DNA of 64,000 nt from Sediminibacterium sp. (GTDB lineage Bacteria; Bacteroidota; Bacteroidia; Chitinophagales; Chitinophagaceae). Positions 14,799 through 51,500 of the stretch are shown piece after piece; within the stretch, counting starts at the first letter, position 1; every line of letters starts with the position of its first letter. A program made the translations under genes and the position numbers. Under the pieces are notes generated by a model. The model saw nothing but the letters and a program-made list of their open reading frames with translations, was not told where the DNA came from and searched no databases. Location: assembly GCF_030695065.1 (NCBI RefSeq), contig NZ_JAUYTR010000016.1:124001-188000 (forward strand). The letters are read 5' to 3'.

Positions 14799-14849
14799 AT
14801 GTTACAGAATCTACATATACATCACCATCATATGCATCCCAAAGGGTAG
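14799..14849 (+). CDS. hisL: his leader peptide MLQNLHIHHHHMHPKG*
   Basis: ATG TTA CAG AAT CTA CAT ATA CAT CAC CAT CAT ATG CAT CCC AAA GGG TAG; six His codons directly upstream of a terminator and hisG. Confidence 0.9.
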   Translation: MLQNLHIHHHHMHPKG

Positions 14850-14883
14850 GCATCGGTGTATTTGTACTAATATATTGAATTCT

Positions 14884-14911
14884 AGCTTACCAGACGGTAG
14901 GCTTTTTTTTT
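14884..14911 (+). terminator. his attenuator (intrinsic terminator upstream of hisG)
   Basis: AGCTTACC-AGAC-GGTAGGCT 8-bp stem followed by a T run; preceding GGTAGGC (14845-14851) can pair with GCTTACC as antiterminator. Confidence 0.88.
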
Positions 14912-18190: not shown

Positions 18191-19435
18191 ATGCAAAAAA
18201 TAAAATTAGTTGTTGCAATGTTAATGCTCTTGAATGTTGCTGCTGCACAACCGAAGCTTCAAGTTGCCATACAATTACCTACTGGGTTTACAAGTAAAGT
18301 TGTTGCCAACGACTTGGGTAGAGTAAGACATATTGCAGTAAATAGCAATGGAGACTTATATATGAAGTTAGATCGCTTGGTTAATGGAAAGGGGATTTAT
18401 AGACTTCGCGACAATAACGGTGATGGTGTTATGGAAGACACATTAGCATTTGGTAATTATACCGGAACGGGTATTGGTATTAACAATGGATATTTGTATG
18501 CTACTTCTGATCAAACTATTTATCGTTACAAATTTGATGCGAACCAAAATATTGTTAATCTAGATCAACCTGAAATTGTAGTTGATGGATTAATGAATAA
18601 AAGACAGCATGCATCCAAGTCAATTACTTTTGATAAAGTAGGAAACCTTTATGTAAATATTGGTGCTCCTTCTAATGTTTGCCAAGAACAAGATAGGCAA
18701 AAGGGCTCTCCAGGTTTAACCCCATGTCCAATATTAGAAAATGCGGGAGGAATTTGGCAGTTTAATACAAGTAAAACCAATCAAACATTAAGTGATGGCA
18801 TAAGATATGCAACTGGTATGAGAAATGCACTAGGGATTGATTGGAACAATGAAGTGAATGATTTATTTGTAACTATTCACGGTAGAGATATGTTGTATCA
18901 ATATTTTCCAGAAATGTACAATCAAAAACGTGGTGCTGAACTACCATCGGAAACTTTCTACAGAGTAAAGAAAGGGGATGATTGTGGTTGGCCTTATATT
19001 CACTGGGATCATTTTCAGAATAAAAAAATATTGAATCCTGAATATGGAGGTGATGGTAAAAAAGAAGGTGCTCCAAATGCCATTTCTCCATTGGTAGGAT
19101 TCCCTGGTCATATGGCACCTAATGCTTTATTAATTTATTCTGGGAATCAATTTCCAGCAAAATACAAGAACGGCGCGTTCATTGCTTTTCATGGTAGTTG
19201 GAATAGAACACCAGAACCTCAAGAAGGTTTTTATGTAGTATTTGTTCCAATGAAAAATGGACTGCCTACTGGAAAGTGGGAAGTGTTTGCAGATGGGTTC
19301 TCAGGCATGTCACCAGTTACCAATTTATCTGCAGCTAAGCATCGTCCAACTGGATTAGCCCAAGGTGAAGATGGGTCTCTTTATGTTTCTGATGATAAAG
19401 CTGGCTATGTTTGGAAAATTTCTTACAATAAATAA
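18191..19435 (+). CDS. PQQ-dependent sugar dehydrogenase-like beta-propeller protein (exported)
   Basis: Signal peptide; YATGMRNALGIDWN, FIAFHGSWNRTPEPQEGF; sorbosone dehydrogenase/GDH-like. Confidence 0.82.
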   Translation: MQKIKLVVAMLMLLNVAAAQPKLQVAIQLPTGFTSKVVANDLGRVRHIAVNSNGDLYMKLDRLVNGKGIYRLRDNNGDGVMEDTLAFGNYTGTGIGINNGYLYATSDQTIYRYKFDANQNIVNLDQPEIVVDGLMNKRQHASKSITFDKVGNLYVNIGAPSNVCQEQDRQKGSPGLTPCPILENAGGIWQFNTSKTNQTLSDGIRYATGMRNALGIDWNNEVNDLFVTIHGRDMLYQYFPEMYNQKRGAELPSETFYRVKKGDDCGWPYIHWDHFQNKKILNPEYGGDGKKEGAPNAISPLVGFPGHMAPNALLIYSGNQFPAKYKNGAFIAFHGSWNRTPEPQEGFYVVFVPMKNGLPTGKWEVFADGFSGMSPVTNLSAAKHRPTGLAQGEDGSLYVSDDKAGYVWKISYNK

Positions 19436-19447
19436 TTGCAATAATTA

Positions 19448-19864
19448 ATGAGAATAAAACTTGCCATATTTGGATTAGGGTTGATTTTGCTCTCTAATTT
19501 TTCAAATGCTCAAACATCTGTACAAGGGAAGTCTAAGCAAATGCTGAATGGGAAAAAAGTGTACGATATGTATTGTCAGGCTTGTCATCAGGCCGATGGG
19601 AATGGAGTGCCCAGATTAAACCCTCCATTAGCTGGAACAGTTTATGTTACTGGAAGTAAAACAAGATTAATTGATATTGTTTTAAACGGCTTGACCGATC
19701 CAATAGAAATTAATGGAGAAGAGTATAATAATCCAATGGCAGCTCATTCTTTCTTAACCGACCAACAAATTGCTGATGTGTTAACTTATATCAGAAATAG
19801 TTTTGGAAATAAAGCAGGTGCGGTTTCTGTTGCTGAAGTTAAAAAACAAAGGGCAAAAAAATAA
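19448..19864 (+). CDS. class I cytochrome c (exported)
   Basis: Signal peptide; YCQACHQADGNGVPRLNPPLAG heme-binding CxxCH; distal NPMAAH. Confidence 0.92.
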   Translation: MRIKLAIFGLGLILLSNFSNAQTSVQGKSKQMLNGKKVYDMYCQACHQADGNGVPRLNPPLAGTVYVTGSKTRLIDIVLNGLTDPIEINGEEYNNPMAAHSFLTDQQIADVLTYIRNSFGNKAGAVSVAEVKKQRAKK

Positions 19865-19866
19865 TC

Positions 19867-20997
19867 ATGAAACGAATTTTATTCATAGATAGAGACGGTG
19901 TGGTATTAGAAGAGCCACCGGTTGATTTTCAAATTGATACAATTGCTAAAACAAATTTTGTTAAAGGGGCACTTACTAATTTATCTAGGATTGCTTCCCA
20001 TTTTGATTTTTATAAAGTGATGGTGACCAATCAAGATGGATTAGGAACAACATCTTATCCTGAAGAACAGTTTTATCCTTACCATGATTTAATGATTAGA
20101 ACCCTCGATTCTGTTGGGTTTCAATTTGATGAAATGATAATTGATAAAACATTTGCATCTGAAAACTTGCCTACCCGCAAGCCAGGTACTGGGTTGTTAA
20201 AACATTTGATGGGGAATGATCATTTTGATTTGTCTAATTCATTTGTTATTGGTGATAGATGGAGTGATATTCAGCTAGCCATTAATTTGGGTGCTAAAGC
20301 AATTTATTTTAAATCTGGATTACATGAGTTAACTGCTGACCAATATTTGGCTTTTAAAGATGTTATTGTTTTAGAAACCAATTCTTGGGAGGAAATATAT
20401 TCATTTCTAAAACTAGGCTTAAGAATTGTTCATCATGAACGTAATACCAACGAAACAAAAATTTCGATTGATGTAAATATGGATGGGGCTGGAAAGGCGA
20501 CCATAAATACAGGATTGGGTTTTTTTGATCATATGTTAGACCAAATTGCTCGTCATGGCAAAATTGATCTAGCCATTACTACCCATGGTGATTTACATAT
20601 AGATGAACACCATACAATTGAAGATACCGGAATTGCTTTAGGTGAAGCATTCGCAAAAGCATTGGTTGATAAGCGAGGAATGGAGAGATATGGGTTTGCT
20701 TTGCCTATGGACGAAGCAGATGCAAAAGTATTAATTGATTTTGGAGGTAGAAATTGGTTGGTTTGGAATGCTGAATTTAAAAGAGAAAAAATTGGTGATA
20801 TGCCTACTGAAATGTTTTATCACTTTTTTAAGTCGTTCAGTGATGGGGCCAAATGCAATTTAAATATATCATGCAAAGGAGATAATGAGCACCATAAAAT
20901 TGAAGTTATTTTTAAGGCATTTGCAAAAGCAATTCGGATGGCTGTTAAAAGAGATCCAATTAGTAATTACTTGCCTTCTACTAAAGGAGTATTATAA
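19867..20997 (+). CDS. hisB: bifunctional histidinol-phosphatase/imidazoleglycerol-phosphate dehydratase
   Basis: N-terminal HAD FIDRDGVVLEEP; C-terminal IGPD GLGFFDHMLDQIARHG, DEHHTIEDTGIALGEA. Confidence 0.97.
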   Translation: MKRILFIDRDGVVLEEPPVDFQIDTIAKTNFVKGALTNLSRIASHFDFYKVMVTNQDGLGTTSYPEEQFYPYHDLMIRTLDSVGFQFDEMIIDKTFASENLPTRKPGTGLLKHLMGNDHFDLSNSFVIGDRWSDIQLAINLGAKAIYFKSGLHELTADQYLAFKDVIVLETNSWEEIYSFLKLGLRIVHHERNTNETKISIDVNMDGAGKATINTGLGFFDHMLDQIARHGKIDLAITTHGDLHIDEHHTIEDTGIALGEAFAKALVDKRGMERYGFALPMDEADAKVLIDFGGRNWLVWNAEFKREKIGDMPTEMFYHFFKSFSDGAKCNLNISCKGDNEHHKIEVIFKAFAKAIRMAVKRDPISNYLPSTKGVL

Positions 20998-21450
20998 GTT
21001 AGATTGTCTTTTCCAAACATCTGTTCTGCCTAATAACGAAATGCCAATATAACCACGTACCTCAATGGTATTAGGGTCTTTCATGGTTATTTTGCAGCTA
21101 TAATCGTCTCCAGATTTTGGGTCATATATCTTGCCATCCTTCCATGAATTATTTTTATGAAAGCTGAAGTTTCTTAAATTAACTAAACCTAGTAATGGGG
21201 AGTTTCTTTTTGCAGGGTCACTGTTTTTTGCATCCACTCTTGGTTTGCCAGTAGTTGGATTGTTGGGTTCTTTTAGCCAAACAATTTTACCATAATAATT
21301 ATTCCCCTGTTTATAAATCTGAACCACTGCAGTTCCTTCACTAGTTTTCCAATTTCCAAGAATTGCATCAGGATTATTATTTGAAATGGGTGCGCTGTAA
21401 GCTGGTAATATGTATAAAGCACATAACAATAGGGTATATAGTATTTTCAT
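20992..21450 (-). CDS. DUF2147-like exported protein
   Basis: Signal peptide; ILGNWKTSEGTAVVQIYKQGNNYYGKIVWL, GRTDVWKR. Confidence 0.82.
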   Translation of the reverse strand: MKILYTLLLCALYILPAYSAPISNNNPDAILGNWKTSEGTAVVQIYKQGNNYYGKIVWLKEPNNPTTGKPRVDAKNSDPAKRNSPLLGLVNLRNFSFHKNNSWKDGKIYDPKSGDDYSCKITMKDPNTIEVRGYIGISLLGRTDVWKRQSNL

Positions 21451-21511
21451 TATTTATTATGTTGTTTGTTTAATGAAATTGCGCTATTGGTGGTATAGTA
21501 TCAAATTATTT

Positions 21512-21542
21512 TTTGTTAATTCATTACTAAACTTCATATTTG
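21512..21542 (+). promoter_or_regulatory. trp operon promoter, Bacteroidota type
   Basis: TTTG (21512-21515) - 19 nt - CATATTTG (21535-21542; one mismatch to TAnnTTTG). Confidence 0.6.
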
Positions 21543-21546
21543 TACA

Positions 21547-21600
21547 ATGATTATCATAAATAAGCATTGGTGGTGGCATTCTAACTCTTTACGGGGATAG
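21547..21600 (+). CDS. trpL: trp leader peptide MIIINKHWWWHSNSLRG*
   Basis: ATG ATT ATC ATA AAT AAG CAT TGG TGG TGG CAT TCT AAC TCT TTA CGG GGA TAG; three tandem Trp codons upstream of a terminator and trpE. Confidence 0.9.
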   Translation: MIIINKHWWWHSNSLRG

Positions 21601-21633
21601 TAATGGTATAACCAATACTCATTGAATATATTC

Positions 21634-21663
21634 AAAGCCCCGGATTAATCTGGGGCTTTTTTT
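21634..21663 (+). terminator. trp attenuator (intrinsic terminator upstream of trpE)
   Basis: AAAGCCCCGGATTAATCTGGGGCTTT hairpin plus T run; CGGGG (21592-21596) at leader end can pair with CCCCG of left arm. Confidence 0.9.
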
Positions 21664-21684
21664 ATGGATTATAATTGACAAAAA

Positions 21685-23097
21685 ATGAATAAAATGCATT
21701 TAGTTACCACAGGCAAAAAAATACTGGGTGATATTTATACGCCTGTAGGCATTTATTTAAGACTAAGAGATCGTTTTAGAGACACCATCTTACTAGAAAG
21801 TACCGATCATCATGCAAATGAAAACAGTTATTCGTTTATATGCATCAACGCAATTGGCGGTATTGAAGTAAAAAATAATTCAACACTAGAATATAAATTA
21901 CCAGGGGATGATGCTGTAAAGTTGGCGTTAGGTAACAAATTAAATGTGCCCCAGTATTTGTGGGATTTCATGAACAAGTTTGAAGTAGAGAAATCATTGG
22001 ATAGTCAATTCCAATTTGCACAAGGATTGTTTGGCTACACTTGTTTTGATGCCGTATCTTTTTTTGATACTGCAATTCCTTCAGAACAAACAATGCCACT
22101 AATTCCACTTATACGATATCGTTTATACCAATATGTAATTGCATTTAATCATTTTAAAGATGAACTGATTATATGTGAAAATAAAATTGCAGGATTAGCC
22201 GGAGATTTGCAAGTAATTGAAACGCTAATCCGTAGTAAAGATGTGCCTGTTTATCCCTTCAGTTTAGAAGGTACTGAAAGGTCTAATATGACCAATGAAG
22301 CTTATATTGAATTGGTTCAAAAAGGCATTAAAAGATGTTTACGAGGAGATGTTTTTCAAATAGTATTGAGTAGACAGTTTGAACATTCTTTCACTGGAGA
22401 TGAGTTCAATGTTTATAGGGCTTTGCGAAGTATCAATCCGTCTCCTTATTTGTTTTTCTTTGATTATGGCGATTATAAAATCATGGGGTCTTCGCCAGAA
22501 GCGCAATTGGTTATAAAAAACGGCAAAGCAATTGTGCATCCCATAGCCGGAACTTTTAAAAGAACTGGAGATGATGCAACTGATCAGTTGGCTGCCGAAG
22601 AACTATTAAAAGACAAAAAAGAAAACGCAGAACATGTAATGCTGGTTGATTTAGCAAGAAATGATTTGAGCAGGGTATGTGATGAAGTGAAAGTAGCACA
22701 TTATAGACAGGTTCAATACTATAGTCATGTAATTCATTTAGTAAGTGAGGTGGAGGGAATACTAAGACCAGAACATAATCCATTTGAAATTTTTGCAGGA
22801 ACTTTTCCTGCTGGAACACTTAGTGGTGCTCCCAAATTAAAGGCTTTGGAAATTATATCATCTTATGAGCCAACACCTAGGAGCTTTTATGGTGGCGCAA
22901 TTGGATTTGTTGGTTTTGATGGAAGCTTTAATCATGCCATTATGATTAGAACATTTCTAAGCAAAAACAACCAGTTAATTTGTCAAGCAGGTGCCGGTGT
23001 TGTGGCAGCAAGCATTCCTGAGAATGAGTTACAGGAAGTGAACAATAAACTGAATGCATTAAAACAAGCTGCTGCATTTGCTGCACAGGTTCATTAA
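21685..23097 (+). CDS. trpE: anthranilate synthase component I
   Basis: SPSPYLFFFDYGDYKIMGSSPE, HPIAGTFKRTGD, FPAGTLSGAPKLKALEII. Confidence 0.95.
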   Translation: MNKMHLVTTGKKILGDIYTPVGIYLRLRDRFRDTILLESTDHHANENSYSFICINAIGGIEVKNNSTLEYKLPGDDAVKLALGNKLNVPQYLWDFMNKFEVEKSLDSQFQFAQGLFGYTCFDAVSFFDTAIPSEQTMPLIPLIRYRLYQYVIAFNHFKDELIICENKIAGLAGDLQVIETLIRSKDVPVYPFSLEGTERSNMTNEAYIELVQKGIKRCLRGDVFQIVLSRQFEHSFTGDEFNVYRALRSINPSPYLFFFDYGDYKIMGSSPEAQLVIKNGKAIVHPIAGTFKRTGDDATDQLAAEELLKDKKENAEHVMLVDLARNDLSRVCDEVKVAHYRQVQYYSHVIHLVSEVEGILRPEHNPFEIFAGTFPAGTLSGAPKLKALEIISSYEPTPRSFYGGAIGFVGFDGSFNHAIMIRTFLSKNNQLICQAGAGVVAASIPENELQEVNNKLNALKQAAAFAAQVH

Positions 23098-25505: not shown

Positions 25506-26136
25506 AGTATGTGGGTTAAACAGTGTGAATCAAATGATGCAGTTGGATGAAGTAGGGGTAGACTTTGCTGGTTTTATTTTCTATCCTAAATCGCCTAGAT
25601 ATGTCTTGAATACTGTTTCTAAAACTGACTTAAAAAAAGCAAGGGGATCCAATATTAATAAAGTTGGTGTTTTTGTAAATGAAGACCCTGACCAATTATT
25701 GGCTTTGGTAGACGATTGTGGTTTGTACTTGGCACAATTACATGGCGACGAAACTCCAAGGTATTGCGAAAAGATTGCTGATTATATTTCTGTAATTAAG
25801 GCATTCAGATTAAGGGATGATGATGATGTGCTATGGAAAATCAAAGATTACCAAGATATAGTAGATATGTTTTTATTTGATACGGCTGGGGCTGAATATG
25901 GTGGAACTGGAAAGCGATTCAATTGGGAAATATTACAGTCTCTAAATATCAACAAACCTTTTTTTCTTAGTGGCGGAATTGGGCCCTCTGATATAGATGC
26001 ATTAAAAGCATTCTCAAATACACCTGTTGCAAAAGACTTATTTGCGATTGATGTAAATAGCCAATTTGAAATAACACCCGGTATTAAGGATATGGCAAAA
26101 GTTAAACCCTTTATAAAAGAATTAAACAATATATGA
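25495..26136 (+). CDS. trpF: phosphoribosylanthranilate isomerase
   Basis: KVCGLNSVNQMMQL, FAGFIFYPKSPRYV, QLHGDE; 11-nt overlap with trpC. Confidence 0.94.
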   Translation: MRAKVCGLNSVNQMMQLDEVGVDFAGFIFYPKSPRYVLNTVSKTDLKKARGSNINKVGVFVNEDPDQLLALVDDCGLYLAQLHGDETPRYCEKIADYISVIKAFRLRDDDDVLWKIKDYQDIVDMFLFDTAGAEYGGTGKRFNWEILQSLNINKPFFLSGGIGPSDIDALKAFSNTPVAKDLFAIDVNSQFEITPGIKDMAKVKPFIKELNNI

Positions 26137-26645
26137 AAAAACAGTATTTTCTCCTTTGTTTTTTTATTTGTGCAACAATAAATTCGCATTCGCAACAATT
26201 GGTGAATGTATTACTTACAACCAATGGAAAAGCTACTTATAAAATTGCAGCGGGCAAGTTTGTTATTTTATTAAGCGATCAAGGCAAAATACAAACCATT
26301 GATGCTGATGCCTCAGGCGAAATTGTCTTTAATAAAAATTTACTCCCACAACAAATTGGGGAATTGGGCTTAGGGTTCAATTATGAGGGTTGGTTAAGTA
26401 AAATAGGAGATGTAACAATAATGTACGATTATACTGGAAGAATTGATCGGGTAGGTAATTTAGTATTTAGATACAATTATAATCAACAAATAGGATCAAT
26501 TGGCGGTTATACAATTACCTATAATTCAAATAAAACAATTGATCAAATTGGGCAGTATAAGATTTATTACAATTATAGTGGCAGTGTATTTAGAATTGAT
26601 CAGAGTAAGGGTCTTATTTTATTACAATTAAATTTTTCAAAATGA
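26133..26645 (+). CDS. exported protein with about 4 short tandem repeats, unknown function, embedded in trp operon
   Basis: Signal peptide MKKQYFLLCFFICATINSHSQ; repeats IGDVTIMYDYTGRIDRVG / NLVFRYNYNQQIGSIG / GYTITYNSNKTIDQIG / QYKIYYNYSGSVFRID; ATGA overlaps with trpF and trpB. Confidence 0.85.
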   Translation: MKKQYFLLCFFICATINSHSQQLVNVLLTTNGKATYKIAAGKFVILLSDQGKIQTIDADASGEIVFNKNLLPQQIGELGLGFNYEGWLSKIGDVTIMYDYTGRIDRVGNLVFRYNYNQQIGSIGGYTITYNSNKTIDQIGQYKIYYNYSGSVFRIDQSKGLILLQLNFSK

Positions 26646-48512: not shown

Positions 48513-51500
48513 ATGCAGTTTAATAAGATCAATAACATTACGGGCTGGCTGGTTTTCATTGTTGCCAGCGCAGTGTATACCCTTACTGCCGAAGCTGGTG
48601 GAAGCTTATGGGATTGTGGTGAGTTTGTAAGTAGTTGTTTTAAATTACAAATACCCCATCCTCCAGGTGCCCCTTTGTTTGTAATTTTAGGTAGAATATT
48701 TATTATTTTATTTGGAGATGATCCAATGAGTGCTGCAAAAGCAGTTAATATGATGAGTGCTATTGCAAGTGCATTCACCATTTTGTTTCTTTTCTGGACT
48801 ATTACCCATTTTGCCCGCAGAATTATCAATATAAAAACAACCGATACGCCCAATAGTTATCAAATTTGGAGTATAATGGGTGCAGGAGTGGTAGGTGCAC
48901 TGGCCTATACATTTAGCGATTCCTTTTGGTATAGTGCTGTTGAAGGTGAAGTATATGCTTTGTCTTCTTTTTTTACTGCAATTGTTTTTTGGGCTATACT
49001 TAAATGGGAAAACCATGCAGATGAGCCAGGTGCAGACCGCTGGATTGTGTTTATCTTTTTCATGATGGGATTGTCTATAGGTGTTCACTTGTTGAATCTA
49101 TTAACTATACCAGCTATTGTGATGGTTTATTATTTTAGAAAAAGAGACAACTTTAATTATGAATTAATTCGTTCTTGGTTTATTAAAATTGTATCTATTG
49201 GTGGAGCGTTAGCCTTTATTGCTGCCTTAGTTAGCGCAGCTGCTGAAGCTACCGACAATGTTCCAATGGATGGAACAATTGGGGGACTAATGATATTGGC
49301 TACCATTGTTGGCGTAGGATTATTGTTTGTTATTGAAAAATGGAAGCCTGCCCAAAAAGCTTATTATGGTGGTGTTTATATCTTCTTTGTTATTGGATGT
49401 GTTATTACTGGTGCTGTTCAAGTAGGCGTTATTCAATATTCAATTAAAATGGCTGGTTCATTTGATAGATGGATGGTAAACGGAGCAGGGATGCCTTTCT
49501 TTAGTGGGTTCACCCTATTCTTTGTTTTAGTTGCTGCATTATTATGGTATGGATTAAAATTAGCTGCTAAGAAAGCATGGCCTTATTTAACTCTATCGAT
49601 CTGGTGCATCAGCTTTATGTTTATAGGCTACAGTACTTATTTAACAACAATGGTTAGGAGTAGTGCAAATCCTTCAGTGGATATGTACAACGTAGACAAC
49701 CCAATGAGTTTAGTGGGTTACTTAGGTCGTGAACAATATGGTGATTTCCCATTACTATACGGTCAAAAATTCACCGCACAGCCCGTTGATTTAAAAAATA
49801 CGGGTATGCGTTATCAGAAAGCCCGGGATAAATACATTGAAGTAGGTCAGGATAAAAAATACGTGTACAATCCCGAGGACAAAATGTTGTTCCCAAGGGT
49901 TTGGGATGCAAGCGATGATCAATACCATGCTTACTATTATTCTGCATTTTTGAATATTGCGAAATTAAAAGATGGTACTTATGAAAGAGCCCCTAATCAG
50001 GTAGACAACGTTAAATTCTTTGTAGGCTATCAGGTTTATTGGATGTACTTCCGCTATTTCATGTGGAATTTTTCGGGTAAGCAAAATGATATTCAAGGTG
50101 TTTACACAGGGAATGTTCGTGATGGAAACTGGATTACTGGGATATCTTTTGTTGACAATTTAATTTATGGAGATCAGTCAAAATTGCCCGATTCTCTAAA
50201 AAATAACAAGGCCAACAATAAGCTATTTGCATTGCCATTTATCTTAGGTATTTTGGGTTTTGTATATCACCGTAAAAAAAGAGGTGATGATGCCTTTGCC
50301 AATTTATTAATGTTCTTCTTTACCGGCTTTGCAATTGTTTTATACTTAAATCAAGCCGGTAACCAGCCTCGTGAGCGTGATTATGCTTATGTAGGAAGTT
50401 TTTATGCATTTGCGGTTTGGATTGGATTGGGAGTAATGGCAGTTATTTCTTACTTAGAGAAAAAAATGAAGCCTGCCGTAGCTGCTATATTAGCAACTGT
50501 TATTTGTTTGCTTGCCGTTCCGGCCTTAATGGCTCAACAAGAGTGGGATGACCATGATAGAAGTAAGAAAGTTTTGGCTCGTGATTTAGCGCGCGATTAT
50601 TTAGAAAGCTGCGCTCCTAATGCCATTCTATTCACATTTGGAGACAATGACACTTATCCATTGTGGTATGCACAAGAAGTGGAAGGTATTAGACCAGATA
50701 TTCGGGTTATTAACTATAGTTTATTGGGTATAGATTGGTACATTAATGAAATGAGATACAAAGTAAATGAGAGTGCACCTATTGATGTAATTTGGTCTGC
50801 CGAACAAATTGAAGGTGGTAAAAGAGATTATGCTTTGTATCGTCCTAAGCCCAATATTCCTGAAGATCGTTATTATGACCTATACGATTTAATGAAAAAT
50901 TATGTAGGAAGTGATGACCCAATTAATATGGAAGATAGGGGCAATGGAGAAGCGTTGAGTACTTTCCCTGTTAGAAAATTCTCTGTTCCTGTAGACAAGG
51001 TTCAGGTGTTGGCTAATAAAACAGTGAACGCCAACGATAGTGTTGTTGCTGAATTAAGATTTGAATTACCTAAGAGTTCAATGATGAAAAATGATATGGC
51101 TGTTTTGAATATCATTGCTGCCAATAAATGGAATCGTCCTATCTATTTCACTAATCCTCAAGTTGATTTAGGATTTGATGAATTTTTACGCAGAGATGGA
51201 TTGAGTCATAGACTGGTTCCAGTTCAGGGCTCTAAAGTAAACACCGATTGGATGATGTCTAAAGCAATGAATGTATTTGCTGCAGGAAATGCCAATGTAA
51301 AAGGGGTCTATTTTGATGAAGAGAATAGAAGACACTTGAATAGTATTAGAACTGCTTATACTGAATTAGCTATTGATTTAGCAGCTAAAGGCAGAAAAGA
51401 AGATGCTAGAAAAGTTTTACAGAAAGTAGACAAGTTAATGGATGAAGAAAATTTCCCTTATGGAATGGTTAGTAGAGGGAATATGCATAATAGAAATACT

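Follow-up and report, generated by a model that had tools for sequence, protein, structure and literature searches.

The trp genes in the 64,000-nucleotide stretch analysed here (the window) begin with trpE. Named by eye from their translations, the genes run trpE-G-D-C-F, a small unrelated ORF, trpB-A and hisH-A-F; the ORF between trpF and trpB (26133-26645, 170 aa) has a signal-peptide-like start and by appearance nothing to do with Trp synthesis. A sequence-only reading of this DNA had placed a tryptophan attenuator in front of trpE, built from a 17-codon ORF with TGG TGG TGG and a strong terminator shortly before the gene. On re-checking, the coordinates of the ORF proved exact, as did the position of the terminator, which was recovered independently by a terminator scan, and the palindrome described between the arms was confirmed. 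Table 1 lists the features of this region and of a second leader, upstream of hisG.

Table 1. Features of the trp and his leader regions (window coordinates).
Feature	Position	Strand	Basis or remark
Putative -33 element TTTG	21512..21515	+	assigned by Bacteroidota promoter rules, 19 nt ahead of the -7 box
Putative -7 box CATATTTG	21535..21542	+	consensus TAnnTTTG, one mismatch
Leader peptide ORF MIIINKHWWWHSNSLRG, then stop	21547..21600	+	sequence read; ATG 21547, TAG 21598-21600
Three Trp codons TGG TGG TGG, predicted stall site	21568..21576	+	sequence read
Segment 1, ascending arm of the 1:2 hairpin (Trp and following codons)	21566..21588	+	folding, pair counts
ATTGGT; ACCAAT	21566-21571; 21611-21616		sequence read
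Segment 2, CGGGG (21592-21596) and post-stop stretch to ACCAAT; descending arm of the 1:2 hairpin	21592..21616	+	CGGGG is the antiterminator strand
Palindrome TTGAATATATTCAA	21622-21635		sequence read
Intrinsic terminator (3:4) and T run	21634..21663	+	scan; covariation; stem 21634-21659, T run to 21663 (sequence and terminator scan)
Segment 3, CCCCG; partner 21592-21596 (antiterminator) or segment 4 (terminator)	21638..21642	+	
trpE, first gene of the trp run	21685..23097	+	ORF translation; ATG 21 nt beyond the T run
Histidine leader peptide ORF MLQNLHIHHHHMHPKG, then stop	14799..14849	+	upstream of hisG (14941)
his terminator AGCTTACC...GGTAGGCT and T run	14884..14911	+	

Dinucleotide shuffles of positions 21451-21684 yielded an ATG ORF with WWW once in 5,000 and an ORF of this kind together with a terminator in 0/5,000. 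Short ATG ORFs with WWW or HHHH occur just twice on the two strands of the whole window, as the trp leader and as the his leader at 14799. The stretch 21547-21663 has a minimum free energy of -37.8 kcal/mol (z = -4.96 versus shuffles). An upstream ORF, MKLRYWWYSIKLFFVNSLLNFIFVQ (21473-21550), with two Trp codons and a stop overlapping the leader ATG, was considered as a tandem leader and rejected as probably due to chance; WW occurred in 3.2% of shuffles, and the second Trp codon is replaced by a stop in a sister genome whose TrpE is 98% identical (L003).

Among same-genus trpE loci with an intact upstream region, 29/29 have a ...WWWH... leader and a terminator, the peptides ending in RG, RGL, GVL or similar. 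In one sister genome, the leader nearly matches that of a public Sediminibacterium MAG (L070, L073), and the genome, a member of Chitinophagaceae, very probably belongs to Sediminibacterium. A scan of named Bacteroidota genomes yielded 80 trpE loci; in 79 the upstream DNA was long enough to count leaders, and 76 of these 79 carry a leader with at least two Trp codons; the loci are the best-matching ones, so near relatives come first in the sample. Those with a leader range over Chitinophaga, Terrimonas, Flavobacterium, Chryseobacterium, Dyadobacter, Hymenobacter and Bacteroidales. The Trp run in orthologous leaders, on which the sequence-only reading had staked its proposal, is therefore kept; WWW itself is present in 100 of the 106 leaders examined, and within the family the peptide is also kept beyond the Trp run (NN.WWWHTNS). 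One family member (L193; G114:C79, ~48850-48960) has a trpE leader with apparently a single Trp codon (ACGGTTGGCATATC, read NNGWH), possibly a decayed or less sensitive attenuator. The pattern TTTG-ATG-TGGTGG, searched genome-wide, occurred at 253 places against 113 in a reversed control and was of no use for locating more leaders.

These counts bear on a rival reading in which the short ORF is there by accident and the hairpin is a plain terminator or a processing site with no link to Trp. A lone terminator is indeed about as frequent by chance (0.8 expected per shuffle), but the WWW ORF, as seen above, is not. Moreover, the upstream neighbour (20992-21450) is encoded on the minus strand, and there is thus no plus-strand gene whose end the terminator could mark. 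The recurrence of WWW leader and terminator upstream of trpE across the phylum already refutes an incidental ORF in practice, and we regard that explanation as hardly credible.

The leader RNA can form three alternative helices: a 1:2 hairpin, a 2:3 antiterminator (CGGGG:CCCCG) and a 3:4 terminator, with the antiterminator incompatible with both of the others. The 28 distinct leaders of the genus fold into the 1:2 hairpin and the terminator, and in the former the Trp codons and the H-T/S-N-S codons pair against the G run and the post-stop stretch. ATTGGT:ACCAAT, suggested earlier as a further alternative fold, turned out to be the outer part of this conserved protector hairpin. Pairs formed in 95.2% of cells for the 1:2 hairpin and 98.5% for the terminator, compared to 35-48% for the whole structure in a control with partners slid by 1-3 columns, and antiterminator pairs formed in 98% (18 sequences) and 94% (10 sequences) of cells for two leader types scored separately; the sequences behind these counts and the covariation are related and not independent, and few 1:2 pairs changed on both sides.

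The pairing of CGGGG with CCCCG had been put forward from the window alone; its coordinates are exact, and it is kept across relatives with compensatory change. In five leaders, G[TA]TAGGGT replaces GTTGGGGT and CCCT replaces CCCC in the terminator arm, and after this double change the antiterminator remains Watson-Crick while the terminator is left with a U-G wobble. As read from these sequences, the change appears to compensate in the antiterminator and would not be needed by the terminator alone; the five-leader group may be a single event. Covariation across related trpE leaders, proposed beforehand as a check, supports both antiterminator and terminator pairs. Phylum-wide, a duplex test of the leader end against the terminator 5' arm and loop reached the 5% level or better in 51/104 leaders, and in 30/77 when the genus set is left out. 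The outcome is partly positive: it holds overall but is weak in Flavobacteriaceae, where loop and 3' arm may serve the antiterminator. In Flavobacteriaceae trpE leaders (L091-L133), the end of the leader, CGTCGTGA with its stop codon, looks like the complement of the terminator's loop and 3' arm, not of its 5' arm, which suggests a different antiterminator layout in these leaders.

The spacing also fits what a ribosome-stalling mechanism needs: in 29/29 leaders, the G run follows the first Trp codon by 24-26 nt and precedes the stop by 1-5 nt. We modelled stalling by equilibrium folding with nucleotides up to the ribosome's leading edge withheld (A-site codon plus ~9 nt). The antiterminator probability exceeded 0.5 in 28/29 leaders with the ribosome at the first Trp codon and in 29/29 at the third; with the ribosome at the stop codon it is zero by construction. 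In the ribosome-free fold, antiterminator and 1:2 hairpin are about equally favoured (antiterminator probability 0.60 for the window, median 0.66), and a default off state would therefore depend on folding order. The window's antiterminator core comprises 5 bp only.

We propose the following sequence of events. Transcription would begin at or very near the leader ATG. With plentiful charged tRNA-Trp, the ribosome would clear the three Trp codons, reach the stop and cover CGGGG, leaving CCCCG to pair with the downstream GGGG arm, and the polymerase would terminate before trpE. When Trp is short, the ribosome would stall at the Trp codons and open the 1:2 hairpin; CGGGG, left free, would pair with the emerging CCCCG, the terminator would not form and transcription would continue into trpE and onward. 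If no ribosome loads, the 1:2 hairpin would tend to hold CGGGG, favouring termination. The features that define a ribosome-mediated amino-acid attenuator are present: a short ORF with a run of Trp codons is conserved in orthologous leaders, and antiterminator and terminator exclude each other in a geometry suited to a stalled ribosome. Given the anatomy, conservation and alternative pairings observed, we consider the element almost certainly a ribosome-mediated transcription attenuator of the trp operon; its response to Trp, the stalling and the read-through we infer by analogy with the E. coli trp attenuator.

In other phyla, trp genes are served by T-boxes or TRAP, and Trp control here might likewise depend on another RNA sensor (T-box, TRAP or riboswitch) with the leader ORF as a bystander. 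Against this, the window gave no T-box or riboswitch match at gathering threshold with Rfam 15, and a search of the genome for TrpR and TRAP (PF02081) genes found neither while the positive controls matched. A separate sensor is thus very improbable. A further proposal would add to attenuation rather than replace it: the leader peptide or the terminated leader RNA could also act in trans. Peptide conservation beyond the Trp run within the family and the S. meliloti precedent of peTrpL and rnTrpL (PMC7298713) speak for it. However, pairing with the antiterminator strand accounts for the conservation of the codons that follow WWW, with no need for a peptide function, and we judge an additional trans role unlikely. 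Attenuation by the translating ribosome remains our preferred reading in what follows.

Bacteroidota lack Shine-Dalgarno initiation, and the region before the leader ATG carries a candidate promoter (Table 1). The Flavobacterium TAnnTTTG box lies at -12 to -5 (PMC9723704); with the G of CATATTTG at -5, +1 falls on 21547, the A of the leader ATG. A [TC]AnnTTTG box occurs 3-12 nt before the leader ATG in 58/106 leaders versus 2.7% of control positions, and the predicted 5' UTR in boxed leaders measures 0 to ~8 nt, 3 being commonest. The trp leader is accordingly predicted to be leaderless or nearly so, a prediction shared by more than half of the trp leaders examined in Bacteroidota. The mRNAs of F. 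psychrophilum have a median 5' UTR of 24, and 5.5% of them are leaderless (PMC9723704).

Related leaders precede other operons in the same genome. GGTAGGC (14845-14851), located at the stop codon of the his leader, is a possible partner for the 5' arm of the his terminator (14885-14891). Folding the window's his leader with a stalled ribosome gives GGTAGGC:GCTTACC, with the stop codon within the antiterminator strand. A His-rich leader was present in 30/30 same-genus hisG loci fetched. Within the his operon, two secreted-looking ORFs lie between hisC and hisB (18191-19864), by eye a sorbosone-dehydrogenase-like protein and a c-type cytochrome with CQACH. The pheA gene is preceded by a Phe/Tyr-rich leader (MQTAINNWFYSFYYFFFMKRSRVLFAKA, then stop) and a terminator (L185 reverse complement from base 67; G000:C17 near 262434, minus strand), with a TAnnTTTG box 7 nt before the ATG. 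Upstream of leuA, no leu/ilv leader was seen.

Beyond these observations we set a broader, tentative suggestion, which we consider less likely than not: leaderless or near-leaderless leader-peptide attenuation may be the general Bacteroidota way to time the ribosome onto nascent trp, his and phe leaders. If so, its presence throughout the phylum would imply functional coupling of transcription and translation in Bacteroidota as a whole. Because the mechanism needs a ribosome close behind the polymerase, the leaders are ready-made reporters for transcription-translation coupling; they also suit testing of 5'-end start-codon use in a phylum without Shine-Dalgarno initiation. A classical trp attenuator is near-universal before trpE in the sampled Bacteroidota, far past the reach of the current Rfam model, and his and phe counterparts occur beside it in one genome. 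Added by this analysis are the leader ATG at the predicted transcription start, the his attenuator in the same window and the Phe/Tyr leader before pheA; the sequence-only reading had mentioned neither the promoter nor the his attenuator, nor a related Rfam family.

Leader-peptide attenuation is a textbook mechanism; among the papers searched, none studied a Bacteroidota trp attenuator by experiment, and the likeliest earlier survey is that of Lopatovskaya et al. 2010. A transcriptome study of F. psychrophilum reports strong clues that point to attenuation by leader peptides ahead of amino-acid operons (PMC9723704). The named family is RF01692, 'Bacteroidete tryptophan peptide leader RNA', listed as Bacteroid-trp (Weinberg et al. 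2010, PMC2864571). With Rfam 15 at gathering threshold, nothing matched at the window's trp leader; RF01692 (cut-off 49 bits) gave no match in 21300-21800 even at E up to 10 and exceeded its cut-off in 0/61 genus and order genomes, with a sub-threshold match of 34.4 bits at trpE leaders of sister genomes. Among 20 other Bacteroidota loci it scored above cut-off in four, all Flavobacteriaceae. RF00513 (Trp_leader) reached 24.2 bits, below its cut-off of 41. R1, an RNA model built here from these leaders and yielding rough E-values, detects trp leaders across the phylum, including the RF01692 members L117, L099 and L093 (E 1.5e-5 to 9e-5), and matches at E <= 0.01 in 169/200 family genomes, some of the weak matches being due to chance. 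Four further matches to R1 were inspected: one was a trpE leader, and the other three had neither leader peptide nor trp gene next to them and looked chance-like.

The window's leader and RF01692 are probably homologous. They share the phylum, the place before trp genes, a Trp-codon leader ORF and a terminator, and the window's element has what the family description names, a Trp-codon leader ORF and terminator before a Bacteroidota trp gene. The leader end resembles the complement of the terminator's 5' arm in the window; in Flavobacterium, read by eye, it resembles that of the loop and 3' arm. The mechanism is thus a known one, in an element beyond the scored reach of RF01692. With the E. 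coli trpL attenuator, it shares a leader peptide with tandem Trp codons and the alternative 1:2, 2:3 and 3:4 helices; it differs in having three Trp codons rather than two, an antiterminator strand inside the leader ORF, and a predicted start at or near the 5' end in place of a Shine-Dalgarno leader. S. meliloti trpL/rnTrpL, from another phylum and with reported trans action, likewise has a Trp-run leader before trpE(G), and its transcript starts at the ATG, a precedent for a leaderless trp leader (PMC7298713).
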